In this document: one piece after another, positions 34,511-61,313 of the stretch
Numbering within the stretch: position 1 is the first letter of the stretch
Layout of the letters: the number at the start of each line of letters is the position of its first letter
Translations under genes and position numbers: made by a program
The notes under the pieces: model-generated
Seen by the model: the letters and a program-made list of their open reading frames with translations, nothing else
Database searches by the model: none
What the model was told of the DNA's origin: nothing
Origin: Bidens hawaiensis
Taxonomy: Eukaryota; Streptophyta; Magnoliopsida; Asterales; Asteraceae
Reading direction: 5' to 3'
Length of the DNA stretch: 64,000 nt
NCBI GenBank assembly: GCA_021521415.1
Contig: JAIQDT010014326.1
Span: 62,001-126,000, forward strand

Positions 34511-34569
34511 CCCAGAAGACACAGAAGACACACATGTTAAGAGCTCAGTCACCCCGGTCACTCTTCAGT

Positions 34570-34850
34570 TTTCAGGTAAATGGCTATCCCGTATGACCAC
34601 TAGTGGTTAACAGGACCAAAACACATATGAAAATACGTGTCCCTCCAACTTGGAATTACCGACATAATTTTAAGTGAAAGAATTCAAAACACAGAAACAC
34701 ATCACAAACGCCCCAGATGCTTTCAGTCTTTAGATAAATGGCTATCCTATGAATCTACAAGTAGATCACCGGACCAAACATATACAAGTATATGTTCTTC
34801 AAACTTGAGCAACCGACATATTTTAAGCGAGAGTGAAGTTTGAAAGACAT
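34570..34850 (-). other. Two tandem hairpin units, copy in C
   Basis: Each unit reads about: TCAGGTAAATGGCTATCC, hairpin 1, GGACCAAA, hairpin 2, CTTCAAACTTG, ACCGACATA, TTTTAAG. Unit 1 stems: ACCAC/GTGGT (34596-34607) and ACACATAT/ATACGTGT (34621-34640, one mismatch). Unit 2 stems: ATCTAC/GTAGAT (34753-34766) and ACATATAC/GTATATGT (34778-34795). The stem sequences differ, the pairing stays. Confidence 0.65.
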
Positions 34851-35478
34851 AGAATTTTTTATTATTAAACGCACACACACTCTTTTTGAATTTTTTAAAT
34901 TTCTCCCCCTAAATTTGTGCAAAAATTTTGATAGAAAGGAAAACTTTTATGTACAAATTTAACCTCAAAAAGACGCAATTGTCGAAACGAAGTATTTAAT
35001 AAAAAATGAAGTGTGATAGTCAGCTAACTGATGTACTATCATTTCTCATGCACGTTCAAGTCATTTTCTCATTTTATGAGAAACAAAATACACTATACAT
35101 GAAAAACTATACGTGTTTTTTTGAATTTTTAAATTTAAAATATTAATATCTTTTTGATTGATCAATCTTTTATACCAAAGTGATGCGGTTACCTTTTATC
35201 TTCAAGACATCATTTTTCAGTTGTGAGTATCTCCCACTAGGAATAAGCTTGTTTTGAGATTCTGCATCCTTGCGAGTTGAATGTCTGGAACAAACCTTTT
35301 AATATGCAATGTATTCCTTGATTGTTCCTACACACTTAGAGAGCAGATTAAAAACGTTCTATCACCCTAAATTCCCGTCCAGGCCATAAATAATCCATTT
35401 TATGGTTTAAAGATTAAAAATAAATGGATATTTGCCCTGTCATGTGCCTGGAACAACCCATTTAATAAACAATGAATT

Positions 35479-35886
35479 TGTGGTTGTTCCGAATCTGGAT
35501 CACTACAATATGATATCAACTAAACGAGTATTGGTGCGGAATACCAACACTCGGTGATTCAAGAACACGAGCAAGAACAGTAAAAGTAACAAAAAATTGC
35601 TTCAAAACACACGTATATTATTGAATACGTCGTGTGCTTAAGCACTTACAATGATCGATCACAATACTAGGAATTAACAACCCTCTAGTTCTACTCACTC
35701 TCTGCTAATGTGAACAACCTCTACCCTATACATTATGTAAACTATATATAGGGAAACCAAACACCTAGGACCATATTAATCACAAGCCCACCGAGAACTC
35801 TTTAGAGTTCTCGGTTTACATAGCTAACCCGTAGCCCAGCCCAATAAACACATAACTAAGCTCAAACCACAAATATGGACCCAACA
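35479..35886 (-). repeat. 5' LTR of element C
   Basis: Ends GACCCAACA at 35886. Similarity with the left LTR begins at CGAATCTGGATCACT (35490); the preceding TGTGGTTGTTC replaces TGTAAGTTT, so its inner edge is uncertain. Confidence 0.7.
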
Positions 35887-37929
35887 GCATGGTCATGTGC
35901 AATTATAAAAACATGTTCCGGCATACCCCTCCGGCCATGTCAATTGGTTTTTTCAAACCAATAGTACTATACCCATGCCTTGGCTCGTAGTTAATCACTC
36001 ATGTGGGAGGCCTTTCAAGTGTTAGCACTTAGATAATTCACATCATAAAAAGTTTTCAAGTACATAAGTATATGTAAACATGCTTTCCACCCCAAAAATT
36101 CCGTAAAAAAGTTTAGAAAGCAGGGTTGTGAAACTCACCTTTTCATAGTACTGATCGGATATACGTGTAGTATGTATAATGCCTCGATTATAGCTCGTAT
36201 CCTATAATCGGTATAGTATGGTTAACATTTGTACAATCTTTAAACTAAATCTAGCTGTTTATCTAGTCTGGGTATAGCTCTTACACCCAGAACGTGTCAG
36301 TAATCTTGGATTGTGACGTTGTATGTTATGAAATGTTTAAAACCAGATTTGGCTCAATTTCACAGTTTTCCATGCATGGCCAAGTTGATCGTTTACGCGT
36401 TTCAGAATTAGGTAAGATCACATAAACTTATGTAAACATACTGTTTGATAAAATGATTTGATTTATAAATGAAGTTTAAAATTTTGGTATCTGGATTGAT
36501 CGCAGGGTTCGTTTCCTGATTCGTATGGGTTTGATTATACAAAACAAGTACAATCCACCCCAATCGTCCGAAAATCTCGGAAAGAGTTCATTTTTATCAA
36601 ATTCATCTAAAACTATGATATTTGACCACCTTTGATGTTTTGACATACCAGTCAGTTCGTTAAACACAAAACTGCCGGTTTCGTTAAAACATATATAATT
36701 TAAATCTTCAAATAATTATAACTATTTATGTAATTATATATAAATTATGAGAATTTTTGTAAAATAAATTAAAATCTGTAAAAGTTTAAAAAATTCATTT
36801 TATGTGTTATAACTAACCGATAAATAACCCGTTTATATCAAACGACATCAGAAAAATCCGACAGTTTTTGTATGTGGTCATAATACTATAAAATAACCCC
36901 CGTAAAAATTCCAGAACCTAATTCTTTGTCCAACATACCCTTTTGGTTTTTGGGCGTTTCAAGCTGTTTTCTCACGGTTCTAATGTTGTGACTAACTAAG
37001 AAGATTACCTACAGGCCATACACAACAATACTAAGCATAAATCATCCATGACCAAGCCTTGTTAATTAAGCTCGTTAAGTTGTACACGTTTTTAGGTTCA
37101 TTAAGTTCCTTTTAACATAAAGTTCGTTACTTTCCGTTTCGTTTGGACCCGATCTACCTTACGTTCAAGTTTCAAGGCCAAACGTTTATTAAAACATAAA
37201 CTTTAAATTCAAGAACATACCTTTAAGAGATAGTTTGGTCTTGGTTAGCTTGATTATAGATCTTGAATCTTGTATCTATGTATATATCGAAGATCTATCT
37301 ATATTTGGCTTGATTTTTGGTCTCGGATTCTTCCTTTCTCTCTTGCGGCCGTTTATAGTAATATATGTGTGTATTTGGAGTGTGTGTAGATATTAAGATA
37401 GAAAGAAATGAGAGTTAGGGTTTTGGAATAGTTTAAGGGGGTATTTATATCCCCTAGGGCCCATGGACCCTAAGCCCATCTTATCCATAATTCCATCTTG
37501 ATTAATCTAAGTCCATTTTCTTTCTTTATTTAATTTTAATTAAATATTAACACACGATAACTAACACGACTTTCTTTATTTAATATTATAATATTTAGGA
37601 TGTTACAGTAGGACAAATATTATTATTCGAAAATACTGAATATATGATTCATATTATTTTGATAATGTTGACATAATCAATACATTAGTTTTGAAAAGAA
37701 GAAAATCAAGAATTAACAATGGTAATTTAACATAATAAAATAAAAATAAAAATGATTAGTAACTTTCTATTAACATTTATTAGTTACTAAAATAAAATAA
37801 AAAACTAGATAATTTACTAATACACCCTTCTAATTAAATAACCTGAAAACAGAAAAGAAAATATATGATTGGTTAGAATTATTTCTCACATTTCTTGCAC
37901 TAAGATCATTCCTCTCTTGAACTTAATCC

Positions 37930-38442
37930 TATATATATCTATAATATATATAAACAAAAACCCAAAAATCATATGTGTCGCGATGTGGTTGCTCCCCCTT
38001 TTTTTGAAGTCACCGGATTTACTTGATTTTTAAAAGAGGGTTTTCATGCATTTGACCCGAATTCACGGGTATGGGTCTTACCAAACCCAGATATTCCTTA
38101 AATGAGTTATAACATTTCATTAAATTAAAAATTATTCTCACCAAATTATTGATGTGAAAATCCTATAAAATAGGATATACTAAAAATTATTATATGATTT
38201 TTTTTAAATACAATTTATAATTTTTAAACAATTTTATAGTAAAAAAATAAGTGGGTCTTACCAAACCTAGATAACTTTTAAACTGGGTTATAACATCTTA
38301 GTTATTTGTGAAACCTTTTTATCATCAAACTCTAAGTATGTTATAAATTTCATTAGAATAAATAAAGTTAAACCAAAAACGTATATAAATATTAAAAACG
38401 AGTAATGTAAAACAGCCCCTGTAACACGGGGGATAAAAACTA

Positions 38443-38443
<1 letters not shown>
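37930..38443 (+). mobile_element. Helitron-like arm, 3' end at 38443
   Basis: Ends CCCCTGTAACACGGGGG, then GATAAAAACTAG|T: a short hairpin about ten bases before CTAG, typical of a Helitron 3' end. The body (AATTCACGGGTATGGGTCTT, ACCAAACCCAGATA) is an inverted copy of 43948-44600. The 5' edge is estimated. No helicase or Rep gene, so non-autonomous. Confidence 0.6.

Positions 38444-38478
<35 letters not shown>
38444..38478. repeat. (TA)n microsatellite
   Basis: Uninterrupted TA run between the Helitron 3' end and the small MITE. A second TA-rich run lies at 38684-38710. Confidence 0.95.
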
Positions 38479-38480
<2 letters not shown>

Positions 38481-38683
38481 TGGGATTAAAATAAGAAGTG
38501 GAGTGTGTTTAAGAAGTGTAAGAAGTAATTTGGAGCGTTAGATATGTTGATCTAACTATGGATATGGAAATTGTGTTTATTGTGCGATGTGTTTATTATG
38601 CGGTGTGTTTTATTAGATCTAATGGTGAAAACACACTTTTTACACTTCTTAAGAAAAATCTACTTCTAATTATAACCTTGTTC
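38479..38683. mobile_element. Small MITE in TA-rich DNA
   Basis: 205 bases. Left end GGTGGGATTAAAATAAGAAG and TTTAAGAAGTGTAAGAAG; the right end is the imperfect inverted copy (TTACACTTCTTAAGAAAAA, TACTTCTAATTATAACC). Flanked by TA repeats. Ends resemble those of the 5.2 kb element next to it. Confidence 0.6.
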
Positions 38684-39149
38684 TATATATATATATTATA
38701 TATATATATAGGGGTGGGATCAAGAGAGAACTCATCTTAATGAGAGAACTAGAGAACTCCATCATAAACTTTGATTTTACTTAATTAATGGGTAAAAATA
38801 AAGGAGGGGAACAAAAGAAAGGAAAAACAGGGGTTTTGAAAGAAAAAGGTAAAACAAGTATGCATAATATCTTTACACATTCCCATTCACCATATCGTTT
38901 CCTCTCTCTCACTCGTCCACTGTTGCCCCCAACCTAGGGTTTCATCCGATTTGCCTGCAAAATTGTCTAATCCATCCCCGAGCCAATCAGTTATACCAAA
39001 GAAAACCATCAGGTAATCGTTCATCTCAGTTCTTCTCACCTATTTCATGTTAATATCATTCGTATTACACTGAATCAACACAAATAGTCTCTGATTCTCT
39101 GTTTTTGTGTTTTCTTTTTCTAAATCGAGTAATAGTATGTTGATACCAG

Positions 39150-42100
39150 CTCATATTTGTTTGACTGCATATATGTAGTACATGACTCATAGGTGTATTA
39201 CACATAAACAATGCAGAATACTCTGTTTTTTTGTTGATATCAATTCATATTTACAACATACTCTGTTTATGTGTGTTTTTTTGTAACAATAATACATTAA
39301 TATCATTTAATATTTGTTTGATTGCATATATGTGGTACGTGAATCAGATATGTTTGTCAAAACATAGTAATGTTACATTATATGAGTATATTCGTATACA
39401 ATGCATAGGGGTATTACATTATAATTTTATTATTTTGATGCAACCGAATCTATTTGTGTTTATTTCATGTATGTAGTGTACTTTTTTTAATTGAATAATA
39501 GTATATTGATAGCAGATTGTATCTTGAATGTCATGCTGAATATCGCACATGCGTAGTACACGAATCATATGTTTGATTAAATACATTTCCAATTTATATT
39601 TGTCGAGCATATAAATGTTTATGCTATTGATAATATTCGTTTACAACGCATATGCACATCGCATTATAAGATAGTTAGGTCGATACAACATGTGCACTTG
39701 TGTTTATTGTATAAATGTATCGTATACTTGACAAGAATGTTGTGATGTTCGCTTAGGTACACAACATGCAATATATATCATGTTTAGCATGTTTATTAGC
39801 ATTTACTTATGATGCATATAGGTAATAAAAAATAATATGAAATCTCGAAATATGCGTCGTTAAAAGCTCGCTTACACAAATAGTTCATGCATACACACTT
39901 ATTTATCGTAGCAAAACTATATTGTTAAAACTCGGGAAAAGGCAAAAGAAAAATCAACATCACACGACCTAGTGAATCCAATTAAAGTACCGATAATGGA
40001 TAATGACGTGCAGCCACAACACGTGTAAAAGAAGATAAACATTGTATTAAACAAAGAAATAGGTAATAAAAAGAGTTTTTAGATATCAACAAGTCCGGTA
40101 AGTTATACTGTTTATTTGTTTTTCTTTATTTAAAATTGCAGATGTTGAATTATACAATTTTTTTCAAAATCAGACAAAACAAGGTGATATAAACAAGAGG
40201 ATGAAAATGAAGTAGTTTGAAGCAGGGGAAGTATATCGGACGTGAATAGACAGATTCAGGTAAGCATGACAAAAATGAAAGTTTTTTTTAATAGGTGTGC
40301 CTACATATATAACATTACCTATATTTTGCAGCCAAAAAGACAACAAGGGCGTTAAAACGTGCATGTATATCAAAACGTGCACGTTGTACGATGATGTATC
40401 CGAGGGTGAAAACGAGAAAAAAAACGAAGGAAAATGTGAGGACAACATAGAGGATACAAGTGAAAGAGAGAAAAATGAAGAGGATACACCACCATAGACG
40501 GTACGACCCTTATAAAAACAATAGTCTTGATTTGGTATATGCATTATATGTATGTGTTGCGCATATGCATTAATGGTGTATTAAACACTTATGTGGATGT
40601 GGTGTATCATATATACGCATTACTGGTAGATTAAATGTTTACGCGGATTTTGTATATTACATATATGAGATGCAGAGGTATTATTTGCATTATTGATGAG
40701 ATACATATATGCAATATAGGATGCATTGCACATATGCAAAACTGGTGTATTACACGTTTATGCGGACCTGGTGTATTGCACATACGCTACAATGGTGTAT
40801 TACATGTCTAGGTGAGCATGGTGTAATACACATATTTACACGCATAAAACCACGCCATACAAAGTGGCAAGTCGAGCGTAATTTCAATGCGGTAGTGATG
40901 CATATATGCAAGTCGTTAGTGTTACATATGTGTATTATATTGACAATGCTTACATTAAACAAATTAGTAATACATAATGTCATGATACATGTTTGTTATA
41001 ATGATTGACTTTTTTTACATAGGTTGACATATTTAGCAATTACCTAATATCGGTTGGACACCCAAAGAAGATATGATGTTAGCAAGGTCAAGAAGAATGG
41101 AGTTCCCATGGGCAACAACAGATAATGTCACGTACTGTGTGATATTGACGATACGACATATGGAATACTATGAACGAGGTGACTGGGTTTGCTGTGATTT
41201 TAGGACAGACGATGTTATAAAGGCTAAACAGATCAAGATTCTTTAGATGAGTTACATAGCTCGTATATTGATTTTGGTTTATTGAGCAGTTAACTCTTAG
41301 AATATTCTATTGTGCGAGTATTTTGCTTTCAGATATCAACGGGTGATAGAAGATGAAGTAAACAGATAAAAATAGGTAAATCACAACAACATGGCTAGTT
41401 AACAGGGTATCTTTTAGTAGTATTATATTGTTGTATATGATTAAATTTTGAATCGGTTGTTAAAACATGAGACTGGACTTGAATATTAATCTTATGGTCT
41501 ATTTACTTGGTGGTGTTAATTGAAGTATGAAATTTTTAGTTCTCTCTTACAGTTATAACTCATATTCGTATGTGCATAAGTCTTGTAATACATATATGCA
41601 ATGCAAACATACATTACATATATGTGCTACAAACATATAATGTTGAGCGAGTTTTGTATATTATGAAGTCCACGTATATACTGTTTAAAATGAAAGTAAA
41701 ACAACCAATACACATATGTAGTACAAACATAGAATTCTAATATGTAATACAAGCATACATTGTATATGTGTAATACACACATATAATATAGAAAAATTTC
41801 ATATATTATGGAGAACATGTATACAATGTTCAAATTTCAAGTAAAGCAACTAATATACGTGCGTAAGTCAAACATGAAAGATTGAATGAGTGATGCGGTC
41901 TGATTAATACTAAGATTTATCTATGAGTCATGACCCATGTATCCGTTTATTTGTGCCTAAAGGGGTAGAAAACCAGTTTCATAACCATACATCTCATACT
42001 CATTGACAACATATTCCCAACTGTGCCCACTTCAGGTATATACTCTTCGGGTACATCAACATCCAATATATTTGTTTAGTTTGTTGTTAGATAAACGATG

Positions 42101-42480
42101 CTCAATGTGCCACCTGCAATTAGTAAAAAATGAAAATAAGTACCAATAAAATTATATGTATACAGTTAGATGGTAATGAGAAACCTTACAATAAAATACA
42201 TGTAACGGTACAAAGTAATAATGTCATGTGTGTATAAACGTTTGTGTTATAGTCATGAACACACTTGCTGATTCTATATACATTAACAACACGTAACAGT
42301 GCAATGCACATATTTAATACATGGAGCAAAATGTTAAAAGAAGCATCTTAGCAAGACACACTAATAACATCACGCATATGTATGAACATTGTTGCATTGA
42401 CTGTGAAGAAAACATGTGTTAATTTCATGTATAGTGCGTTATACTACATGTATGTAGTACATAACAATATACTACATATA
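39150..42480. repeat. Degenerate TGTATTACAC / ATATGCA word field
   Basis: Many loosely spaced words such as GGTGTATTACACGTTTATGC, GTAATACACATAT and CATATATGCAGTACA, densest at 39150-39800, 40560-40990 and 41570-41860. There is no fixed period. ORFs here are short and unlikely to be real. Confidence 0.45.
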
Positions 42481-42512
42481 CGCAGTAGATGAATAAGATG
42501 GTATCTTGTTAC

Positions 42513-43078
42513 TAGGGTTGTAAGCGAACCGGACGTCCGTGTCCGTTCGGCAAGAAGTTCGTTTGTGTTTGTCCTTTTAATAAATGAACTAGACATGGAC
42601 AAAAAATTTCGTTCGGTGAGCTTAATGGACGAACACAGACAAAGGCCATGTCCGTCCAATAGTGTCCGTGAACGTCCGGTAACATCCGTTCGATTACGTC
42701 CGGTAATGTCCGTCTGGTAACGTCCGTACAGATAGGTTTGTGTGTGTTTGTTCTTCGATAATGAAAATATTAGTGTTCGTTTTCTATTGGTGTCCATTAA
42801 TGTTCATATGTTTGTTTGTCCACTAAGGTTCATTAGTGTCCATTAATGTTCATGTGTTTGTTTGTCCATTATTGTCCGTTTGTCCATTAGTGTTCGTTAA
42901 CGTTCGTTTACAATATTAACAGACGGACACGGACAAACTCAATTTCTTAATGGACGGACATGGGCCTTAATTTTCGTTCGATATAGTGTTTGTGAACCAT
43001 CCGTTTTTCCGTCAAAAGCTTAACGGACGAACATGGACACGGTCTCGTCCGTGTCCGTCCGGTCTGTGTACACCCCTA
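42513..43078. mobile_element. hAT-type MITE
   Basis: Ends TAGGGTTGTAAGCGAACCGG and the inverted CCGGTCTGTGTACACCCCTA. Eight-base target duplication CTTGTTAC / CTTGTTAT, one mismatch. 566 bases, inside the 5.2 kb element. The interior is full of GTCCGTTCG / CGGACGG words, forming a long imperfect inverted repeat. Confidence 0.85.
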
Positions 43079-43947
43079 CTTGTTATCAACACTAGCAAAT
43101 TCCAAAATAATTACCAAAATTTAATTTTATATCAGCATATGGACTCGTTTGGGTACTCCAATCAAACAAGTTAGACCTTTTTACTCGAGTAGTAAAGGTT
43201 TCTGACCCATATTCGTTTGGAACTGCGATCAAACATAATAGGATTTGTTGATATACCAGAATAAGCAATACATAAACAGTTTACCATAAAACGACTGTAA
43301 TCAAGCTGCAACTGCAATCAGTTAATAAATTAGTGATAAAGGAAGATAACATTTGGATAAAAAAATTACCTTAAATTATCATGTCAAACAACTGAAATCA
43401 AGTTGCAATGATCTTCAATGGAATTTAGGATGTAGTGATGCTCAACGGTGAATCACTTTGCAATATTTGTCCATTAAACACCCTGCAATTTTGAATCTAA
43501 ACATAATAAAAAAAGCCCTAATTTAGAATACTCTACTATTCACAAAACTAAGAAACCTGAACACACTTTTGTAATTTTTTTACAAAATTGTAAGCAATTG
43601 CTCATATATTATGTTAACAATCGACACAATTTCACCAATTACATACATAATGTCAATTTTGAAAATCAAAGAAGTGTGTATCAGGCGAACCTCGTAATCG
43701 ACACTCATATGAAGATCGAGTGGATATAGCTATGGTTCATAAAATCCGGTGGAGACAATTATGGTTCAATCATCGCATTCAGAAGATTGAGTGGATTCAA
43801 TTAGGGTTACAGGGGAAGATGAACACAATGGAAGCGCGTCGTGTTTTGGAAAACCATTTTTACATATTTAACCCTGAAGTTAAGAGTTCTCTAGTTCTCT
43901 CTCTAAAAAGGAGTTCTCTCTTGATACTTCCCCTATATATATATATA

Positions 43948-44600
43948 CTAGCTTTTATCCCTTGTATCACAGGGTTGTTTTACATTATTAGTTTCTAATA
44001 TTTATATACTTTTTTGGATTTTAAATTTATTTATTGCAAGAAAGTTACGGGGTTGTATTACATTATTCGTTTATAATATTCATATATTTTTATAATTTAA
44101 TTTTATTTATTGTAATGGAAGTTAATAACATACTTATGATTTGATGATAAAAGATTTCACAAATAAATAAGATGTTATAACCTGGTTTAAAAGTTATATA
44201 GGTTTGGTGAGACCCAAGACCCGTTTATTTTTTTACCATAAAATTGTTTCTTAATTATAATAATATCATTAAAAAAAGAAAAGAAAATATTAATTTTTAA
44301 CATATCCCTATTTTATAGGATCTTCATATCAAATATTTGGTGAAATTAATCTTCATATCTGGGTTTGGTGAGACCCATACCTGTGTATTCAAAACAAATG
44401 CATAGGGAGCAAATGTTTTAATTTAGTGAGATGTTACAACCCGTTTAAGGGTTATCTGGGTTTGGTGAGACCCATACCCGTGAATTCGGGTTAAATGCAT
44501 GAGAAACCTTCTTCACAAATAAAACATTTTGATGACTTGAGAAAAAGTAGTGAGCAACTAGAGAGCTTTTAAAGGTTTCGTTTATATATATTAAAAATAT
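43948..44600 (-). mobile_element. Helitron-like arm, 3' end at 43948 (inverted)
   Basis: On the minus strand it ends AACCCTGTGATACAAGGG, then ATAAAAGCTAG|T. The body (GGGTTTGGTGAGACCCATAC, CCGTGAATTCGGGTTAAATG) is the inverted counterpart of 37930-38443. The 3' ends of the two arms face each other across the TA-rich cluster. Confidence 0.6.
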
Positions 44601-44684
44601 GTTGTTACAACTTCATAATCCGGTGATAAACATGTATTCATCGGCCCCGATCCAATAAATATTTTGCAAGACCTTAATTCTGAT

Positions 44685-45368
44685 TAGGGGTGTTCACGGT
44701 CCGGTTTTCGCGGTTTTAGGGTCAAACCGCGAACCAAACCGTTAGCAATGGTTTTTAGTTTTTGCAAAACATAACCAAGCCGTAGAACTTTTAAACCGAA
44801 CCGAACCTAACAGTTACTAACGGTGTGGTTCCGGTTTGGTTTCACAGTTTGGGCCTTTCTAGTTTTGTATACAAATTGTTCGACATAAGGTATGATATAT
44901 TTATAGTAAAGTTGTCAATAATTTGCAAATATCAAACATGTTTAAACACGATATGTTCACGGTCTAAGTTTAAACACAAGTTGTTCGAAACACACATCAA
45001 AATAAGTATGTGACCGAACTATAATATGCCAAAATACATCAAAAAGTTAACGGTTTGGCTTAGCACATTTTCTAATTCATTGCAAATATGCAGTTAATAT
45101 ATATTATATACATTATTAGTTATAATTTAACAATTATATTCATATATAATCTAAGATATTTTAAGAAACTAAACATAATTAAATTATACAGTACGGTCCG
45201 GTTTTATACGGTTGGTTTTCGGTATAAACTGTAAACCAAACCATTCGCTACGGTTTGAAGTTTTTGAAACCGACCGACCGAAACTTAAGAAAAAAACCAA
45301 CCATGAAACCTAACCGATGACCGGTTTGAGCGGTTTCATGGTTTCGAACCGAACCTTAATCACCCCTA
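44685..45368. mobile_element. hAT-type MITE, second copy type
   Basis: Starts TAGGGGTGTTCACGGTCCGG and ends CGAACCTTAATCACCCCTA. Eight-base duplication ATTCTGAT / ATTCTAAT, one mismatch. 684 bases; many AAACCGAACC / GGTTTCGGTTTG words form inverted repeats. No ORF of note. Confidence 0.85.
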
Positions 45369-45659
45369 ATTCTAATGATATCTTGCGCATTAAATGTTCA
45401 TGCTTGTATCCGTTGTGGTTAGCATGTCAGGATGCTCTATTCGTCTTACCATGACCCGATCCATTGGACTGTCCTCTATGGTAAGAGGATTCGAAGCCCC
45501 TCCCCGGTGCCACGTCAGCGTCACGTGGGCACTGGGGGCTTCAAAGCCCCACCCCAAAGATGCCCCTCTATGATGAGGGGGCTTCAAAGCCCTTTAATTT
45601 TTTTTATTTTTTTTAAATTTAGTAAATTAACAAACTTTAATAATAAAATACAAACTATA

Positions 45660-46125
45660 TTAAACTAAATAATAAAAATCAGACTTAATTAAACTAAAAA
45701 ACATACAAATAGAAAAAAAATATAGAACTACTATTCGGCGTCCTAGTCCTCGTTTGCGTATTTTGCCATTATCCAAAAACGCCCGCGTGGCCGGATCCAG
45801 ATGCGAGAGTTCCTTTGCGAGGAGCTTGAAGTCCTTCTCTCGTTGCCGCTCCGATTTAGCCTTCTTTCTTTCTTCATGCATGGCTTTGTATTCCGCATGC
45901 ATCGTTGGGAAACAGTTGTACGTTTGGAGGCATGGCGGGTAGATGATGGTTGGCATAGAAAGGGTTGGTAGGGTCATTGTTGTTTGCGAGCATACTAGCC
46001 CACCACCTTTGAGCCGGATCCCGCGGGTTTGGGTTGGTGTTCGCGTTTTGGTTAGGGTTTGAGCTCGAGCTCGTGTTCGGGTTTGGGTTTGAGCTCGAGC
46101 TTGTGAAATGTGAGAAGGGATCCAT
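45660..46125 (-). pseudogene. Remnant of a Harbinger-like transposon ORF
   Basis: Minus strand: MDPFSHFTSSSSNPNPNTSS, Asn/Pro-rich repeats, then DPAQRWWASMLANNNDPTNP and NVQLFPNDA. After a frameshift near 45900 follows AEYKAMHEERKKAKSERQRE and LLAKELSHLDPATRAFLDN. This looks like the N-terminal low-complexity part and the Lys/Glu-rich C-terminal helix of small proteins encoded by PIF/Harbinger-type plant transposons (MYB/NAM-associated type); the call is from memory of similar plant sequences. GC-rich flanks at 45466-45600 and 46260-46420 (CTATGG, GGGGCT words in opposite directions) may be the element ends, but I found no clear target duplication. Confidence 0.4.
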
Positions 46126-46425
46126 GGTATAGAGTTAAGAGATTTTTTTAGTGAAAGTTGATTGAAATTTGGTATTTGTTTAAGTAAAAAATGATAAAAT
46201 GGGTTAGTATTTATAAATAAAATAATTAATTTTTTTTTTAAAAGTAGCCGTTTATGAACTTTGGAGGGGGGACCCACCAAATTTTCAAAACCGCGCCGGC
46301 CGTTGGAAACACCCAACCTTCGGCACCCTTGGTTGGACCGCGCCCCACCGCGGTGTTCCGCGCCCATCGGCGCCCGCCAGGTCAGCCGTTGGAGCCCCAT
46401 AGTGGGTGGTCTTATATATGGGCCT

Positions 46426-47189
46426 TCTTTTTATTCATTGTTTTGTCTTCATTCTTCTCATCCATAATCCATCATCACATCAGTCACGTGTTCGGAGCCT
46501 AGTCTTGACGGGGGACCTGGGTTGAGGTACCTCATTAAACAATATACCAAAAACAATTTTGAATGTTTGGTTTTTAGTGGAAACTAGTGTTTTGACCTCC
46601 CGCATTATGAAACTATCAAGTCGCTTGGCGACCCCGTGGATATTGAGAAAGGAAAAAAAAACCGTAAATGTTTTTGTGAATGCCTGAAAATCGTATATAA
46701 GGGTAACTCGCTAGAACATGGTAACACAAAATAAAAGTTAGTGACTATTATTCTAATGACCAACACATATTTCCTATTCGACAATAGAAAGTAGTGCAAC
46801 TTGAATTGTATAATTGCATTGTTGAATGTGGGTAGGGAAAAATAACTTGTGAATGGAAAATGCAACAATATTTCAAAGCAATTACAACTCCAAAACCATA
46901 TACTATTTCCAAAATGTAGTGAGCATAAGTACCATTAAATTATACTCCATACGCAACCCACATTACTACCAATTAGTGCAATGGTTTAAATCTCATTTGA
47001 CTAAAGAAATACACACAAACATGCTTGTTTACGTTATATACACATTTCTGATGAAGTAGACAATCAAACTCAAGAAGAACTATGAAATCTTAAGTACACA
47101 CCTTCTCACAAAGTTGAAATAGAGTAAGGAATGAAGGACATAGCGTATGTCAAAAGCTGCCGACCCGACAAATAAGTGTAGCATCGCAT
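46426..47189. other. Intergenic, nothing firm
   Basis: AT-rich. A possible Helitron 3' end on the minus strand lies near 46585-46610 (GGGAGGTCAAAACACTAG), but I could not define its hairpin well. Short ORFs on both strands look like chance. Confidence 0.35.
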
Positions 47190-48180
47190 CAGATCACTGC
47201 CAACACCAAACCACCGCTAGCTAGTGTTGCAAAATTAAACGTGTAATGCCAGCGACGAAACCACCGATCGCCACCTAGGTTTCCAAATTGAAATCAGTAA
47301 CGAATACCGAAGACAAAACCGCAAACGTTCGACTCAATGACTGGACCCTGTAACCTCAATGACTCCGCCTCCACCCTGTAACCATACAAACAACAATATA
47401 TTATCTCCCTACCACATTTTGCTCCATCTAGACAATAGACTTTCTGCCATGTTTGAGACATCTGATCTTCAAATCAGGTTATGAGATTCGAATAACAAAA
47501 GAGCAAAGAAAAAAACAACATAAGCTCACCCGGTGATGAGTCGGAAAATATTTATCCATCATAGCTTATGCTTTTAAAGACGACAATCGAGCTTCCTAGC
47601 GGCAGCAGTAAGTTACTCACATGTAGACCCAAACAACAACAGATGCATACACCCAAAGGTTTAAGCCACGAATACCCCTACTCAGTAAACACTGATGCAA
47701 GTGAAAATAACAATTAAGGCATTTAATCGAACAGCTAACGTGCAGGTCAAAAAACAACACATACACAAACTGAGCAACGACATGAAAATCCAAGAATTGT
47801 GTAATGTCCAACCAAACCTCAGTTGTTGTTTTCTTGTTTTTGTTTGGAGTAGTGCGGGTTAGTTTTTATCAAACAACGGAGATCTCAAACGCCTCACCAT
47901 CACCTGAAAAAAGAATATTCCGGCCGATCAACACAAACCACAGGGTTTACGTTGCTCAGTTAACTTATAATAAAATGCTTCAAAAGTAGTTTTATGCATA
48001 ACAAACTCGATTGAGGAACTGCAGATCCGCCACCACCACCGCCTAGGGTTCCAAAATGGAACCTGGCAACAATCACATCGCCGTCGCCAAGGGTTTCCAA
48101 AATGGAACCCGGCAACAGACGAATCGGAGACGCAATCACGCAACAGTGAAACACCGCCACCTGGGATTCCAATGGCAACA
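47190..48180. repeat. Degenerate repeats with GGTTCCAAAATGGAACC palindrome
   Basis: Two blocks (about 47205-47300 and 48015-48175) contain units like CCACCGCCTAGGGTTCCAAA, ATGGAACC and GGCAAC, two to three times each, roughly 50-65 bases apart. The palindrome GGTTCCA...TGGAACC is perfect at about 48049-48065. The minus-strand frame at 47928-48287 crosses it but has no recognisable domain. Confidence 0.5.
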
Positions 48181-48959
48181 GCCAAGATTGGAAGAGATCG
48201 GATTTCATGAATGAAGATAGAGAGAGAGAGACACTTCCTCAAATCTTTGGGAAAGGATGAAAATAGAGAGAGGAAATGCCTCTTCAAATGGTAGCAGGGA
48301 TGCTATACGTACAACTTCTAAGGCAGTAGTCACACCCTTTGTAGCATCATGTACAACTTTTAAAGCACAGTTTGGTAAAGCAAAGTTCAAAATTGTAATG
48401 TTTAGAAAGCAGCCTCACTTCCGGCAATTCTTTTACAAAAGACAAAATACATGTGATGTGCCTAATGTCTTCTAGTACGATTTCTTTGTTGAACTTAAAA
48501 TGTGAAATTAATACACGGATAACAAATATAGAATGCCTAGTTATTTCGTATGGGATTGATCAATAGTAAAAAGTCATCGTTAGATGGCCTAATCTAGCTG
48601 TACGAAACCCTTAAGCGCCTCAAAGTTATCTCTGATTATGGGAAAAACTCACTCACCCGAAAACCCGCTGATCGTAAAACCCGGACACTCTAAGATCAAA
48701 CTGGAGATCACAAAGATCTCAGTCTTTCTTTATTGAGCTACCAATGTCCTCAAAAATGTTGTAAGTGAAGATTAAACTTAGGTCTCAATTGAGAAACTTA
48801 AGCTTCCTACCATTACATCATGTTGGGAAATTCTCAATTAAGAAATTAATTCATTCTCATTTTAAATTTTATCACTTCTAGATATTATTATATTTATTAT
48901 ATAATAAAAAAAACTTGATGTCGTAAGTGCCCGATTGGATCACTTGACGGCCTTAGTGA
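48181..48959. other. Intergenic, nothing recognised
   Basis: Purine-rich GA stretch at about 48208-48235, then AT-rich DNA. No ORF with family resemblance and no clear repeat. Confidence 0.35.
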
Positions 48960-49446
48960 TTAATGACACTTTTTATTTGTTTTTTTTTTGGCACCGTAAC
49001 GAACATAACGTAAAATGATGAAATTCAAACTTTGTTTTTTCTTTTTGTTTTAGTTCCGGTATCGCAACTAATATGAGGGAAACCGACCGAATTCAGATAG
49101 ACCCACAGCCTTTTATTTTAGTTTTGGTACTTAACGAACATAACAAAAACCAATTGAATGCCAAATTTGTTTTTCTATTTATTTTTGTTTTAGTTTTGAT
49201 AATGTAACAAACATAACTAAGACCAACCAAATTTGCGTAGATTCACCATCTCAACACCCGGGATTGACAACGTTTAGGTTTTACCGACGTCTGAGTTTTA
49301 GTTCTGATATCATAGCGCACGTACCAAAACCGACCGAATTCGTGTCGACTTACCGCATCAATGTCTGAGGAACGACAACTCTTGGTTTTACCACCGCTCG
49401 GGTTTTACCGATGTATCTCGACGCAACGCACCGAGTGTAACACTAG
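48960..49446 (+). mobile_element. Helitron 3' part with ~100-base internal repeats
   Basis: Ends CTCGACGCAACGCACCGAG, then TGTAACACTAG|T: a hairpin with CTCG...CGAG followed by CTAG, typical of Helitron 3' ends. Upstream, units of about 100 bases recur with GTTTTAGTTTTGGTAC, AACGAACATAAC and ACCGACCGAATTC. The 5' end was not located. No Rep/helicase gene. Confidence 0.55.
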
Positions 49447-49590
49447 TTACACTTTAATTTGAATCGCGTTGTTACTTATATATATAAAAAAGGTATTTAG
49501 TAATTGTTATTTATTATTATGATATACTTTATTTTTATCGATCTTCTGAAAATCAGTAACGAAAGGGTTAAGCTAAATGTAATTGTCATA

Positions 49591-50268
49591 CCCCCTCTCC
49601 TAGACTTTTAGTTTCTTCAACAATTTTATTTGACATATTACTACCCTCTAATATTTTTAGGCATTTCAAGTCTCCTTTAAAATATCAAATCAAATACTAT
49701 AAAGTTTATTTTTTTTATTTTTTTCATTTTCTATTTTTTTTGTGTTTATTGTTCTTTATCATAATAATAATAATAATATTTATTATCATTATAAAATGTA
49801 TTTAGAATAATGATATAACATATTTATAAAAATGATAAAACGTTTTGTTTATATTTATCTTATCATATGCCTCACACCCAACAAAATGATAATTTAAATA
49901 TTTTTTATCGGTTCGAATGCATGAAATTAATGTCACATGAGAAAAGAACCAACTTGTTGATCATGTCTTATGTTGTTTAATCTGTTTTATTGATAAAAAA
50001 ATATGTTTCAAGTTAGCTAACTTTAAAAAAATATTTGAAATGAAAAACACACCCTAAATGTTTGTTTTTTCTTTTTAAATTAAAAACGCTTTTTACATGA
50101 ACAATTTTTGTTATTAAGAAAAACAAAAAGAAAATATAATATGCAAAACAAAAAAAGAAAAAGAAAATTTAAATAATATTTTTAATAAATAATGATAAAA
50201 AATGACAAAATAACAAAGAATAAACATAAAGGTTTAAATCGTATTAATGTAAAACTTAAGAGAGGGGG
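49591..50268. mobile_element. Long-hairpin MITE with TA target duplication
   Basis: TA|CCCCCTCTCCTAGACTTTTA at the left, and inverted CCCCCTCTCTTAAGTTTTAC at the right, with TA on both sides (49589-49590, 50269-50270). The inverted similarity goes deeper (TTTGTGTTTATTGTTCTTTA against TAACAAAGAATAAACATAAA), so the 678 bases can fold on themselves. Fits a Stowaway-like (Tc1/mariner) MITE, though longer than usual. Confidence 0.55.
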
Positions 50269-50270
50269 TA

Positions 50271-51714
50271 CGTTTAGTAAAAATGAATGGAAAAAAGAAT
50301 ACGATTAGCAACACCCTAACGAAATCAGAATCCGTCAATGGCCGGATAAAGAAATAACTTTTCTAGTATAAATAAAAAATAAATAATATGATAATGATAA
50401 ATACATGCTTACTTTCAAAAAGAAGTATTTGTCTTTGAATTTTGTTTATGTTTGCTTTCTTCCGAATATGTGATAATTTTATATCAGAATAATTAATTAA
50501 TAAAGTAAAATGAAAAATGAATATTTTCTTTTTCATGATGAGTTTTTTCAAATGATGGTCTTGGCTATTTGAGGAGTGAAGACGAGTGAGCGGACAATTG
50601 ACCCGTCAGTGATTCAAATTAGTCGTTAAAAAATGAATGTTTTTTTAATACTTAAAATATATATTTTGAAAATTTTAAAATTTAAACAATAGTTGTAAAT
50701 CCACCAATTAAGTTAATTTCACATTTTAAATTTGTTTTTTAACCAAAATTTGTGTCACTAATAAGTCATTGACTCACTCGGTCATATTCATTCCCCAAGT
50801 TTGAAATCATGTGGTGTTAGGGGTGTACGTCCCCGAAGAAAAACTCATACATTGATCCTATCCCAGAAACCATCCTTAAAAGAGACCCGCAATAGGTGAT
50901 AAAACTTTCTAACCAAACTTAGAACCTTTAAGTTTTATTACTTGTGTTTTCTCTCATATTTTAAAATAGTTATAACGAGCTAAACAAAACTATATTATTA
51001 TAAACCCTTGAAATCAAATTTAACAAAATAACAAAGCTCCAAAGAGCTAGAATAATAATTTAATATTTTGTAGTTGCATTTTGTTTCAATAACGTGAGTG
51101 TGATGGTTAAGACTTAGAGATCTTTAATGTCTCAAGTTTGAAACCAGTTTGGAACGTTAAATCAATATAAACGGTTAAAATCCCAAATTAAAATGGCTCA
51201 CCCGAGTATAAGGGGTGTTTAAAAACGATGTTAAAATAAAATAACTTAAGACGCATGTCACTTGAAGATTTATTCCACCGCTCATACTATTCTTCAATTT
51301 TTAATGAAAACATATTTGTGTCTATTTAATTAAAACATATCAATTCATCCTTAATTGTAAAGATTAAAATATATACGAGTATTTACGTCAATATAATCAA
51401 AATATTTATATCTTTAATGAAATCTTCTACTTTTTTTATTATTAAATAAATTTATATACACTATTGAGTGTAGGAGATTTATGTGTTAAAATTCAATAAA
51501 CGATATTTATAGAACTAAGATGATGAAGACAAAAAGAAAGAAATTCTAAATGAATAACAATTTTATTCTCATATATTCATTCAATCTTCATGGATGGATC
51601 AATGGCGTTTTTATCCATCTTTTTTGAAACTGTAATAGAAAATAGTGTTTTATTCATGCTAATTTATTATTTATGATGTTTTTTTATGTCATTCTTAATA
51701 AAATATTTGATTAT
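50271..51714. other. AT-rich intergenic, nothing firm
   Basis: No gene or clear element. TAGGGGTGTACG at about 50818 looks like a lone hAT MITE end without a partner. Confidence 0.4.
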
Positions 51715-51890
51715 TGTAACAACTCGGATTTTATATTATTATTTTATTAACTATTACCCGACCCGTTTTATGTTTGGGATATTCTGTCAATAAAAATTAT
51801 CGTGTTTATTGGGTTGTTTAATTATTTTAATACTATTGTATAATTATTTATTTATTTTAGGTAAAACAACTTTCAAGGTTATACGTTTTT

Positions 51891-52311
51891 TGTAGGTTCC
51901 TGGACGGATCGTACACGGGATATCGCTAACAACGCAGGTGCGGAATCCCTGCGCAGGTAGTTACGAGTGTAGAGATAGAATCACACGAGCAATAAATCAA
52001 CCACGTTATATTGATAACCGAACACGTGACTCACGGTCACTATTACAGAAAATAACACGTAACACCAATATGAAACACACTGAAACAAACCCTAAACGAC
52101 CAACACTCAAACTGTTTCAGCGAAACAGTTTTATACACGACAACTTCGCCATTGGCGAAGTTGTCTATAACTTCGCTGATTCAACAAGTTCGCCATAGCG
52201 AACTTGTTGACAACTTCGCGTATTACAAAACAATCATAAACAAAACATAATTACATTACAGACTCGATTACAAATGCTAGACTATGAACTACTGACACAC
52301 ATGTACCAACA
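51891..52311 (-). repeat. 3' LTR of element D
   Basis: Plus-strand reading starts TGTAGGTTCCTGGACGG and ends ACATGTACCAACA. It contains two hairpins of the element's own word: CAACTTCGCCATTGGCGAAG and CAAGTTCGCCATAGCGAACT. Confidence 0.97.
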
Positions 52312-52322
52312 GACTCCCCCTT
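52312..52322 (-). other. Polypurine tract of element D
   Basis: AAGGGGGAGTC on the minus strand, directly before TGTTGG of the 3' LTR. Confidence 0.9.
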
Positions 52323-52375
52323 GGCAGTAGCTTCATATCTTGATCTTCAAATCTTGAGTCTTGTAATCTTCACCT

Positions 52376-55165
52376 CTACGCGTGCGCCCCTTCTCTCACA
52401 CATACCGACACTACCCCTTGATATTTCCTAGCTTGATCCTTCCAAGCAGGAATGTAGAAGATCTTCTTCTCGTTGAGCACTTTCAAATCAGCCTGCGACA
52501 GATTAACAAGATGCATCGGGTCGTACACCCGAAGTACTTCTTGTTCATCCTCATCTTCCATTACCGCCTCAGCTGTCTCACAATCCACGTACCACCATTT
52601 TAAATCTTTTAAGACGTTCTTGGGCATAACTTTCATCGGTACTTCTTTCAAATGACGGACTGGTTTATACTTCATAACCATCCATGGTTTGCCGTCAGCC
52701 CTCATTCCACGATCTTTGTCTTCTATCAACTTTCCTTTTTGAGGCTTTAGCAGTTCAAACTTTTTGTCTTTAATGGCTTCTTTCCATACGATCTTCTCAA
52801 TGATTCTTGCCATATCATCATTGCTTCTATTAATCAGCCCCAATCTCGCTAAATCTTTCACCTCACATTCTGGTAAGGAATTCAGAGATCTCAACAATCT
52901 CTTAAAGTACTGAATGCCGTCGTACCGTTGATCACAAATAGTTTCAGCTCTTTGTCGTACAACCAGCATATGATTCCCTTCTTTGACTCTGCATAGCCCT
53001 TTATATTATAAGTCTTTCTGAACATCGTTGGCACTGCAGGCTTCTTGGTTTTAACAAACCACTGAGCACAGCCTTCTTTCCAGTTCGGCTGCTCCTCCCA
53101 TACTGTATCTTCTATCACGCTCTCATCCCCCAATTCTGATCTCTCAACAGCTGGAATCTCATGTTCCACTGAATCATCCACAATCTCACCTTCTTCTAAT
53201 ACATCTTCCACATTAATCTGTTCTCCAATCCTCTCAATCTCATCCATAGGCAACACGTCGTCATCATCCATCAACTCATCGTCCTCCTCCTCATCCAACT
53301 CCTTCAAAGCATCGATAACGTCTTCAACATCAGCGTCGTCATCCACAACTACAACCTCATCACCAGCTGCATTTGTAGACTCCCCCTCAGTTGTGGAAGC
53401 CCCAAGAGCCTGAGAGGTTCTTGGCAGCTCATCACCTGCACCGGAAGGTGCATTGGGATCATCGTCATGATCTTCTCGTCTTTTCGTTCTCAACTCATCG
53501 CCCCTACAAGTATTCTCCCCCTGAGATGCCAAGTAATCCTTGAAGGCATCTATTATTCTTCCATGTTCAACCAGGAGGGCAGCTTGTAGTCGATTGGATT
53601 CCACTAGGCGGTCAATAGTCTTTGACTGTTCAGTAACAATCCGCTCTAGCGAAAGAATCCTCTCGGTATCTGAAGTAGGCAATGGAGTTGGTGGAACATC
53701 AGTAGCTGAAGTGACCGCATGTGGTACACTTGGTAATCCTGCAGTTGTTGTAATTGTAGAATCAACGAATCGTGCAACTACCACCGGTGGATTAAACGGT
53801 TGGGGTGGTAGAGACATAACTGCCGGTGCCGACGCCTCGACAGCAGTAGTAGTAACCCGTTCTGATGAAGGAATAAGAGACATACCGGACAAGGCAGGCG
53901 GAGCAAAACGTACTAGTCTTGAAGATTCTCCCGCTCCCGAACCCCTACCTGTCCGTTCTCTACGTGAACGTCTGAGCACAATCTGTACTGCCTCCTCTTC
54001 ATCCACTTCATCCTCATCCTCCTCCACAGTTCTCGGCCTCTTTCCCGTAATCCTTTCCCGAGATACCATGAGCCGTCTCGCCTCAGCAAACGTTTCGTCT
54101 AAATCGGAGTCAGCTACCGAAGTAGCTCTTCTAGTAACATCAACCAACTGAGGACCCGAGACATCCATATCAAACAAACCATGTCCACTAAAAGCAGCAT
54201 CTAGATCAACGTGTTCAGCAGTGGACACAGCCTGAGATATAGTAGCTGGCACAGCAGCAGAAGATACAACAGGCGCAGCTGATACAGCATGAGGTGCTGC
54301 CGCCTGATGTGGTTGCGGATCCCTGAACTCGTCCCCTCCTGCAGGAACATACTCCGGGTTGATGAGATACCCGAAAAGTGGAGTATGCCTGGGACGCCGC
54401 TCAGGGTTGCTACGAGTGCTCGACGTCCTGCACTGAGCAAAGATACGTTTTGTTACGCACTCAACGTATCTGATAGGGCGTCTTTGCGGTATAGACGGAG
54501 CGACATGATTAATAATCATTTGTAGAAACCGAGGATACATAATAAAACGCTAGCGCCGTCGCCCGTCTCTGACGATCAATCTCGTAAAAGATTAGCTGAC
54601 TAAAAGAATATCTGCGGTTGTAAGTCAGCGCAATCATGGCCGATTGCATCGTCGCACCCATCCCGTCTGTTCCTGCCTTTCTGCCGGACATGCATACTAT
54701 TAACACATGCATCAGAAAGCGCCATTGATCCAGCAGAAAGCCTTTCCTCCTCTGCGAGTCCCCCAGCGGACCCGAATAACCCATCCTCAAGTAAGCTCCG
54801 TCACGGAAAGGAGCTACGAACTCCGTTGGGTCGTCTCTCGTTTCATCACCGAACTGCAGAGCCAACCGTATGTCTTCCGAGGAAAACTGTATGCCTTGAC
54901 CATTGACAGTTGCTCGCATCACTGGAGGCTCAGGTCTGCAATCATAATACACCGTCTGCCAGAAATCTTCAATGTTAGGCAGAGATATGGGTAGTGTATT
55001 AGTGATCGCGTGAAAAACTCGTGATCGTTGGAGAAATGTGATAATCTCCCTATAGTCTTCAACGCCTCGTGCGTCTGGATCCAAAGTGATGTATTGGTTA
55101 TGGGCTGGAAAGAATTGTCGTTGCTCATCACCATCATCACCACCAGCACCTCCAACAGCAGCCAT
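52376..55165 (-). pseudogene. Env-like ORF of element D, two frameshifts
   Basis: ATG at 55165 (MAAVGGAGGDDGDEQRQFFP). Part 1 (to about 54545): globular domain with YREIITFLQRSRVFHAITNT, RATVNGQGIQFSSEDIRLAL, YLRMGYSGPLGDSQRRKGF and LIVCMSGRKAGTDGMGATMQ. Part 2 (54540-52891): MYPRFLQMIINHVAPS, RPRHTPLFGYLINPEYVPAG, then a long Ser/Thr/Pro/Ala-rich linker, a likely coiled coil (TERILSLERIVTEQSKTIDR) and an acidic region (DEEEDDELMDDDDVLPMDE). Part 3 (52969-52376): YFKRLLRSLNSLPECEVKDL, KPWMVMKYKPVRHLKEVP, ending CVREGAHA. The frame shifts near 54545 and near 52930. If those are assembly errors the protein would be about 930 residues. Same family as the env-like ORF of B. No signal peptide or clear membrane segment seen, so true envelope function is doubtful. 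Confidence 0.65.
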
Positions 55166-55167
55166 AT

Positions 55168-55185
55168 CTGCATAAAACAAATCAG
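55168..55185 (-). promoter_or_regulatory. Acceptor-like site before env-like ORF of D
   Basis: Minus strand CTGATTTGTTTTATGCAG, two bases before the ATG at 55165. Element B has the matching TTGTTTGTTTTTTAACAG ending at 27889, also two bases before its ATG. Confidence 0.5.
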
Positions 55186-55229
55186 GTTAGAGACCATATA
55201 ACCATCTCACAAGTTCGCTGTGTACCATG

Positions 55230-55930
55230 TGCGAAGTTGTGATGTACACAGAACAGGCGAATTTAAAGGTGAGGCGAAGTTGGGAACAACTTCGCTTCAT
55301 CTGTAAGTTCGTCTGAAATCTTATAAAAAATTTGAAATAGGCGAAGTTGTGTTCAAGGCGAAGTTATGGATAACTTCGCCATAGGCGAAATTAAGCTTCA
55401 AGCGAAGTTGTGGATAACTTCGCTGAAGGCGAACTTAAGCCACTGGCGAAGTTGAGAATAACTTCGCGTAAACCTTAACTTCGCCTGAATCTGAAACGGC
55501 GACTGTTCAGATTCAAACTAGTTTTATCCGACGTTTCGGACCGATTTAAGGATATAACAATGAAGTCCAACATATTTCAATGGTGTTAGGACGAAAAGGT
55601 CGTCCATGAACACGTAACGTGAGGTCGAAAAACTTGGTTTCGAAGGTTCGACGACCCGAGGTCTCGAACCGGGTAAAACTATACCGAACGAGTAAGTTTG
55701 TGAATGATATTGACAACACATACCGTTAATGAGCACAAGAAACTGGAAACAAAGATCGAAATCGAAAATATAATCAAGTTCGCCGGAAATATTCGTAAAT
55801 TCGCCGGAAGAAGTTGAGAATAATAACCTGTTACTGTTTCAAAGTCTATATATAGGGCAGAGTTTGTTCAGGCGAAGTTACGCTTAACTTCGCCTTGGCG
55901 AAGTTAAGCACAACTTCGCCGAATTCAACA
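55230..55930. repeat. GCGAAGTT...AACTTCGC hairpin words, spacer of D
   Basis: Dense palindromic pairs at 55255-55470 and again at 55865-55930, for example GGCGAAGTTATGGATAACTT, AGCGAAGTTGTGGATAACTT and GGCGAAGTTACGCTTAACTT, each closing with CGC. Stem of 8-9 pairs, loop of about 4-6 bases. Confidence 0.85.
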
Positions 55931-56089
55931 ACTTCGCCCGTAATTTCAAAATCAGCCCTTTAAGTTTGAAAAATCTTGCACTTAACATTAGAAGTTTCCA
56001 AAAAGAGTTAAACAAATATGATCAAGACCCAGTAACCAACAATAAAATAATATAACTACAAAAACTAAAAAAACTTAGAAAAATTTTAA

Positions 56090-56504
56090 CGAAATAAGGG
56101 ATCAAATTTCAGTCTAGTCAGGGACCACTACGTTTTAGAAAAGATCCTAACAGGAATCATACTAACGATGTGACTGTCACTTAGATCCGTGTTTAGCTGT
56201 ATTATGACATAGAGACACAGGTTGTAAGCATGTAAATAACGTAAATGGTTTTCATCGTTTCTGTGATACGGATTAAGGTTCAGTTAAGCTCAAAAATTTA
56301 AGTTGGCAACATCTCAGAGATAATGATGTCTTCTATCTATTCTCAAAGCGTATTTGGCTATACCCAAGTCACCCCGAATTGACTTCGACCCATAATGTCT
56401 GATTATCTTGTAGATACACGATGTCTGCCTCCCGTTTTCTTCTAACTCCAGACTTGAGAAGTCTTGATTGTTACTATGTCTCATAAGTATTTAAAAATAT
56501 ACAC

Positions 56505-56551
<47 letters not shown>

Positions 56552-56990
56552 TCAACATTTTTATCGACTTCGGAGTACTAAACCACTGCAAGTCCCGAAT
56601 CTGGATCACTGCAGTATCTTGAAATGCTTTCTTCACGGGAATCAGAACACTCACGGGCTCGTGTATGACTGGGTAGTCGCTTTTCTGCCTATCCTTCGAA
56701 AAGATATGTATGAAGACATACAAAACTCTTAAGGAGTTTCCACGTAAATTCGAGTAAATTTAAGTTAGTATCACATACACTTTTACGCACCATAAAAATT
56801 ACCATGACATACAATGACTGTTCTAAAGCCTTTTAAGCCTAATAACTTCACTAGTTAAGCACACACAATCAGTATATATATCATTTTCCAAGGTTGGATC
56901 AATTTTCTGTTAAACACAGCATAGAACTTCTTACGAAGTAACAGACTTGAAAAGTAATTTCATTTCCCGAAAAAAAACTTTAATTTCAAT
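56090..56990 (-). other. Conserved pol-env spacer, copy in D
   Basis: Aligns with the copies in B (29395-30360) and C (33560-34510): TATTCTCAAAGCGTATTTGG, CTCGTGTATGACTGGGTAGT, CGCTTTTCTGCCTATCC and CCAAGGTTGGATCAATTTTC. The stem seen as GGAGA/TCTCC elsewhere is GAAA (56698-56701) / TTTC (56737-56740) here, with the same loop length of about 35. Confidence 0.65.
56504..56540. repeat. (TA)n microsatellite
   Basis: TA run followed by a T run inside the spacer of D. Confidence 0.95.
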
Positions 56991-57009
56991 CGCCCCAATC
57001 GCGTCAAAG

Positions 57010-57260
57010 TCGTCAGGTAAACGGCTATCCTGAAGATCCAATGGATCAACTGGACCGACCACATACAAGTATGTGTCCTTCTTACTAAGTATGACCGACT
57101 AATTTTCAGCAACTGAAAGAACACACGTCATAGCTGCCCCGGTTACTTTCAGTCTTCCGGTTAATGGCTATCCTTATTTTCTAAGTCGAAAAACGAGGAC
57201 CAAAACATATCCGAGGATATGTCCATCAAACTGAGGTAACCGACTAATTTTAAGCAAAAA
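57010..57260 (-). other. Two tandem hairpin units just 3' of pol, copy in D
   Basis: Same unit as at 34570-34850. Unit 1 stems: GATCC/GGATC (57035-57047) and CACATAC/GTATGTG (57060-57075). Unit 2 stems: TTTTC/GAAAA (57177-57192) and ACATATCC/GGATATGT (57205-57222). Fixed parts around them: GGCTATCC before hairpin 1, GGACC between, ACCGACTAATTTT after. The block lies directly after the pol stop in transcript direction. Confidence 0.7.
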
Positions 57261-57316
57261 TGACCCTTGTTTTTTTTTTTTTTGTTTTTTTTTTTTATAA
57301 AAAAACAAAGACATGG

Positions 57317-61311: not shown

Positions 61312-61313
61312 AT

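Follow-up and report, generated by a model that had tools for sequence, protein, structure and literature searches.

In a window of 64,000 nt from the Bidens hawaiensis genome (contig JAIQDT010014326.1, positions 62,001 to 126,000; all coordinates below refer to this window), two long terminal repeat (LTR) retrotransposons, elements C and D, each carry a tandem pair of units that we propose to be selected RNA domains of ~105 nt in the sense transcript of Sirevirus-type elements. Three helices of the unit (P1, P4 and P5b) pair and covary between families, the signal is biased toward the sense strand, and the tandem pair is present in 60 loci of the C and D families. Selection on the unit structure is in our judgement very probable.

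The sense words GTCGGT, GGTCC and GGATAGCC, taken in that order, have four matches in the window, each of them on the minus strand, against none in 100 shuffles. The original prediction of two tandem units in each element is confirmed for all four units, and its fixed words and all eight of the stems that it quoted for C and D are found in the sequence. Since the coding strand of element D is the minus strand, the letters on which that prediction was based are the reverse complement of the RNA, and the reading direction has to be inverted; the one stem mismatch that the prediction reported, in hairpin 2 of C1, is an A.C on the plus strand but a G.U wobble on the sense strand. In sense order, element D carries first unit D2, read from the sequence from P1 to P1 at 57139-57244 (minus strand; P4 57205-57222, P5 57165-57202 with hairpin 1 at its tip) and folding to the model described below, and then unit D1 at 56995-57099 (minus strand; P4 57060-57075, P5 57022-57057, P1 3' strand at ~56995-57003). 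Element C carries first C2 at 34714-34817 (minus strand; P4 34778-34795, P5 34739-34776) and then C1 at 34554-34663 (minus strand; P4 34621-34640, P5 34581-34618). The D block had been placed directly after the pol stop; its position holds, with the refinement that it begins 73 nt past the stop, and a run that is A-rich in the sense direction (57265-57310), variable in length among D copies, lies between the two.

In our model a rod of three helices, P1 (of the CGGUUAC/GUGACCG kind), P2 (AGUUU/AGACU) and P3 (AGG/CCU), would close a three-way junction bearing a hairpin, P4, and a bulged arm, P5, so that the unit takes the form of a Y. P4 corresponds to hairpin 2 as first described, while P5 consists of hairpin 1 (P5b) behind a nearly invariant bulged helix (P5a). 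Both hairpins are therefore present as predicted, but the unit is larger than two hairpins: the words conserved 3' of GGATAGCC are the 3' strands of the rod, which lies outside them. A pattern of 24 places, built from the four window units but designed not to recover the four types themselves, had 85 matches in the 3.47-Gb genome; its reversed control had none. Ten of the 85 were analysed as further units; they comprise a type E (L119-L122 and L124, with L126 similar), a relative of C2 (L123) and relatives of D1 (L117, L118 and L125). When folded with added context, 7 of the 14 units (C1, C2, D2, L119, L122, L123 and L124) adopt the common shape of P1-P2-P3 rod, junction, P4 and P5; L120 has the model shape with an altered P5a, L121 a weaker rod, and L126 only part of the structure. 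A cloverleaf model with a small additional hairpin, hp3, and a closing helix GGUAA/UUACC came from folding bare units and was dropped. With more context its closing helix has 0.0 expected pairs in all 14 units, and covariation is absent from that helix (354 of 720 permutations, six units), hp3 by itself giving 29 of 720.

Taken by themselves, the four window units provide modest evidence (with Watson-Crick pairs only, the combined shuffle p is 0.015 in hairpin 1 and 1.9e-4 in hairpin 2), which becomes strong only once further families are added. Helix by helix, we combined the 5' strands of seven representatives (C1, C2, D1, D2, L122, L125 and L126) with the 3' strands of one another: only 2 of 5040 permutations match or beat the real pairing of hairpin 1 (P5b), and only 4 of 5040 that of hairpin 2 (P4). 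For P1 the count is 30 of 5040 once the strands are corrected and L125 is replaced by L123. The two hairpin counts are identical on the antisense strand, so the argument for RNA rests on folding of the whole unit. For this we compared RNAalifold energies, with each strand folded separately, against column shuffles that preserve gap pattern and conservation class. Ten units, with D1 represented by copy L002, give z -7.95 on the sense strand (0 of 300 shuffles) and -2.62 on the antisense strand (6 of 300), a difference in the direction expected of RNA. All 14 units give -4.38 and -3.33 respectively, with a ten-row subset reaching -8.76, and a reduction to one unit per family (six rows) gives -4.15 and -2.21. 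By contrast, a ten-row control from the neighbouring linker gives z -0.35 (94 of 300), though it is better conserved than the units (mean identity 0.80 versus 0.73). Standard pairs fill 298 of 330 cells in the ten-row alignment (245 Watson-Crick, 53 G.U), the others being 9 A.C, 21 of other kinds and 2 gapped, and both sides have changed in 16 of the 33 pairs; the count of G.U against A.C favours the sense strand by construction, since the structure was derived on that strand. The initial claim of a selected structure maintained by covariation is thus supported once the ten further units are included, with covariation in P1, P4 and P5b.

For each family 40 copies were scored in the genome, from 2178 (D), 4751 (C) and 4997 (B, a third, related family) first-look candidates. 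Searched with a profile built from the 14 units, 30 of 30 D loci (spacing 145 nt) and 30 of 30 C loci (spacing 151-156 nt) contain exactly two units, both on one strand. Identity of 251 nt across the 30 D loci was rejected as evidence of conservation within that family, because it stems from the selection of copies; other D blocks differ from the window by 0.2% to 24% on average. The C family carries gag and no recognisable pol ahead of its units. Gag frames with zinc knuckles lie upstream of the units, in the sense direction, in the six C loci read (L038, L040, L041, L043, L046 and L055), PF00098 is present in both of the C-family upstream open reading frames (ORFs) scanned, and where the end of the Gag frame is readable (L038) it falls ~0.7 kb before the units. 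None of the 30 C loci, which extend to 1.5 kb upstream of where the query matches, contains a match to the final 399 residues of D pol. Between the units and the 3' LTR of window C there is no sense ORF longer than 115 amino acids. Beyond the plant genome, 26 pattern matches in IMG/VR, one per stretch, were taken as chance because the unit profile found none of them, and a piece of D pol had no match in that database.

Carried twice by the C and D families, and in D within the linker that follows pol, the unit pair would be a cis-acting element of the genomic RNA that offers a protein two landing sites. Two similar structured sites with conserved words in the sense RNA, their retention in a C family with gag and no pol beside them, and a window C without a long downstream ORF suggest that the RNA does its job in cis, a role that seems to us probable. 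That a family with gag and no pol beside its units still keeps the pair also points to a landing place for Gag or its nucleocapsid, the most likely partner, in packaging or dimerisation. Packaging in particular we put forward tentatively, as a possibility that falls somewhat short of a probable one, and the full chain from selected domain through packaging is a shade more tentative again. There is a precedent in the available part of PMC3735527, where BARE2, a defective Ty1/copia family, keeps its signals and is packaged by another family's Gag. Extended to its limit, the reading would make the pair a genomic-RNA recognition signal of a large Sirevirus group, located after pol and not in the leader, bound by Gag at two sites, and shared by full families and by gag-bearing, pol-less ones, so that the proteins of one family could mobilise the RNA of another; in this extended form we consider it doubtful.

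Several observations weigh against the proposal of a selected, Gag-recruiting domain, or against parts of it. The packaging signals of the best-known retroelements sit mainly in the 5' leader and not after pol. The related B family has no units in 30 loci searched with the 14-unit profile, and its linker is homologous to the linker that carries them in its relatives; a hairpin near GGATAG in aligned B copies was considered as a unit relic and rejected on the same profile result. Four of the 14 units, all of D1 type (window D1, L117, L118 and L125), form neither P5a nor the full rod in their ensembles, and the minimum-energy structure of window D1 departs from the model. The P1 3' strand of D1 occurs as six haplotypes among 31 rows, the window copy being one of them, and lies beyond the edge of the query over which D loci were picked by identity. 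The commonest haplotype (14 rows) has a P1 pairing energy of -10.4 kcal/mol, the second (13 rows) -7.2, that of the window -8.2, and the single haplotypes -9.2, -5.8 and -4.0; copy L002, with the commonest haplotype, folds to the model, whereas L001 and L004 do not. The first P1 strand swap failed (704 of 5040), D1 having been cut at the wrong place. P2 and P3 together are without covariation (634 of 5040 permutations), which is evidence neither way, and P5a varies so little that covariation cannot speak for it. Stems of C-family units, as defined by the earlier cloverleaf-type structure, vary roughly as much as other sites within that family: C2 has 54 changes on 56 stem sites and 26 on 34 others, C1 has 32 on 62 and 28 on 32, and 86 fall on 109 sites outside the units. 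No purifying selection within the C family is seen in this comparison of stem with other sites, and the covariation signal sits between families, not inside dead copies.

Among other explanations for the pair, a role in RNA export or stability ranks after packaging. The pair would then recruit a host factor that carries the unspliced transcript from the nucleus, in the manner of constitutive transport elements. Two structured sites in tandem after pol, on the sense strand, suit such a role, which would equally account for retention in a family without pol beside its units, and LTR elements are known to face the problem of exporting unspliced RNA (PMC10309623, in the part available). Neither in sequence nor by Rfam do the units resemble a known export element, and we regard this explanation as somewhat unlikely. 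Less likely is control of expression at the boundary of pol and the env-like region, through splicing, stop-codon readthrough or internal entry for the env-like ORF. The D pair does begin close behind the pol stop and upstream of env-like ORFs, but those ORFs start ~1.8 kb downstream of the units, and in the C family the units are retained with gag and no pol ahead of them, which speaks against a function linked to the pol stop or to an env-like ORF; window C, with no long sense ORF beyond its units, argues the same way. A role for a downstream ORF, which the original prediction had offered as an inference beside splicing and packaging, is thereby made less likely, and we hold boundary control to be unlikely overall.

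The inverted repeats could alternatively be protein-binding sites in DNA, like the palindromic boxes of element D described below. Hairpins 1 and 2 are inverted repeats on either strand, with strand-swap counts to match, but the much stronger sense signal of the whole unit, the ~100 nt that separate the P1 strands, and the partial reliance on G.U pairs of the polymorphic D1 P1 strand leave this explanation with little probability. Least probable of all is a mutational artefact in which template switching during reverse transcription, with its many opportunities, makes or corrects short inverted repeats and so mimics covariation without selection: a single such event could rewrite a stem, and hairpin 1 is almost wholly different among C1, C2, D1 and D2, but the distant P1 strands covary too, P1 of L123 and of the D1 haplotypes shows single substitutions, the variable stems hold their place between fixed words in 14 aligned units, and the conserved linker block next to the units gives no signal.

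Element D, host of one of the pairs, appears to be a Sirevirus-type element that departs from the available description of the genus (PMC2829016) in two details, its attachment dinucleotide and the core of its palindromic boxes. Its pol ORF (57317-60664, minus strand) encodes Pol_BBD, gag_pre-integrs, rve, SH3 and RVT_2 in the Ty1/copia order, with rve at 224-321 before RVT_2 at 635-876 of the ORF. The LTRs (5' at 61313-61734, 3' at 51890-52311, both minus strand) are identical, and TTTTT flanks the element on both outer sides. The 5' LTR is followed in the sense direction by ATTGGTATCAGAGC, which we take to be a tRNA-Met type primer site. The polypurine tract (PPT) octamer AGGGGGAG, which in the part of PMC2829016 available marks Sireviruses 10 bp upstream of the 3' LTR, occurs in the sense direction at 52314-52321, two bases from the 3' LTR start (52311). 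Three overlapping ORFs without a Pfam match occupy the position of the Sirevirus env-like gene, an optional mark of the genus, between 55186 and 52376 (minus strand); the largest has one protein match only, from Bidens hawaiensis. The attachment site is TC/TG, whereas an AT/TG site follows the terminal PPT in 20 of 21 elements in that paper's available part. Fourteen palindromes of the form GCGAA.TT(N)AA.TTCGC, with the core GCGAAGTT/AACTTCGC and not CGG-CCG, lie in the LTRs, upstream of the env-like ORFs and in the leader, at 52155, 52198, 55274, 55358, 55402, 55446, 55872, 55898, 60807, 60889, 60954, 60997, 61578 and 61621. They look like Sirevirus RM boxes minus the CGG-CCG core: as far as PMC2829016 was available, RM boxes are repeated palindromes in the LTR and upstream of ENV with that core, 1 of 13 RMs lacking it, and the leader is outside the places given there.

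The window copy of D has no gag, with a deletion breakpoint at 60747. A query of 1001 nt (LTR, leader and pol start) matches in full only itself among the 40 scored copies; in the other 39 the first 754 nt match at 99-100% and all then leave the query at the same point. The distance from leader end to units is 5.99-6.01 kb in seven D copies against 3.49 kb in the window, which would leave room for gag, and the window copy is a deletion derivative of a larger family, its gag deletion being private to it among the scored copies. The idea that D (pol-only) and C (gag-only) are complementary halves was rejected for D on this ground. Element C (32472-35886, minus strand) has a BLAST LTR pair at 32478-32877 and 35486-35886 with 96.8% identity, GCATG on both outer sides, an AT/TG attachment site but a degenerate PPT octamer. 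Its 5' LTR meets the linker near 35486-35490, and at 35488-35490, the beginning of that LTR, the other C-family loci (29 of 29) diverge from window C, so that it too is a deletion derivative of a larger family. The B family is represented by a relic at 29445-31709 (minus strand), with pol remains ~50% identical to D pol and a homologous linker without recognisable units.

Elsewhere in the window, a Ty3-type element at 15652-25093, whose 2375-nt LTRs (15652-18026 and 22719-25093) are 100% identical and whose gag-pol frame at 18218-22684 is open, is judging by its sequence a young insertion. Several long inverted repeats around 37892-38748 and 43906-44523, 76-91% complementary and mostly facing each other across 5-6 kb, resemble the arms of a foldback or DNA transposon.

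Rfam release 15 has no match at gathering scores anywhere in the window, and for 56950-57320 and the units L119 to L126 yields only matches with E of at least 1.5, far below gathering scores, which agrees with the earlier statement that no RNA domain of this kind is known to have been described. Searches of open-licence papers on Sirevirus motifs, linker RNA structure and retrotransposon packaging or covariation turned up no description of such a unit in titles and openings of abstracts; PMC10760457, to judge from its available part, has as its topic microRNA-like structures in maize elements. Sireviruses occupy large parts of plant genomes, including ~21% of the maize nuclear genome (PMC3599292, available part), and a defined RNA domain with a testable fold and natural family variants would provide a handle on selection, export or packaging of plant retrotransposon RNA, as well as on how pol-less families remain mobile.

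Constitutive transport elements of simple retroviruses are structured RNAs in the 3' portion of the genomic RNA, where one long hairpin presents two binding sites. The analogy with our pair would lie in two sites within a structured 3' region; the difference is that here there are two separate Y-shaped units, with no Rfam match. With the packaging and dimerisation signals of LTR retrotransposons, as exemplified by BARE2 in the available part of PMC3735527, the units may have in common a cis signal that defective families retain while relying on the proteins of another family, but they lie after pol and not in the 5' leader. Closest in place are the linker motifs that Bousios et al. (2010, PMC2829016) describe, in the part available, as multiple PPTs, an inverted repeat at the junction of PPT and 3' LTR, and the palindromic RM boxes. 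These are likewise conserved and non-coding, belong to the same genus and the same region between pol and 3' LTR, and in the case of the RM boxes are also inverted repeats, but they are octamers, short palindromes and one junction repeat, whereas the units are tandem multi-helix domains of ~105 nt located early in the linker; the available text nowhere uses the word hairpin. In a linker that the same source terms extremely diverse, structure as well as sequence can evidently be conserved.

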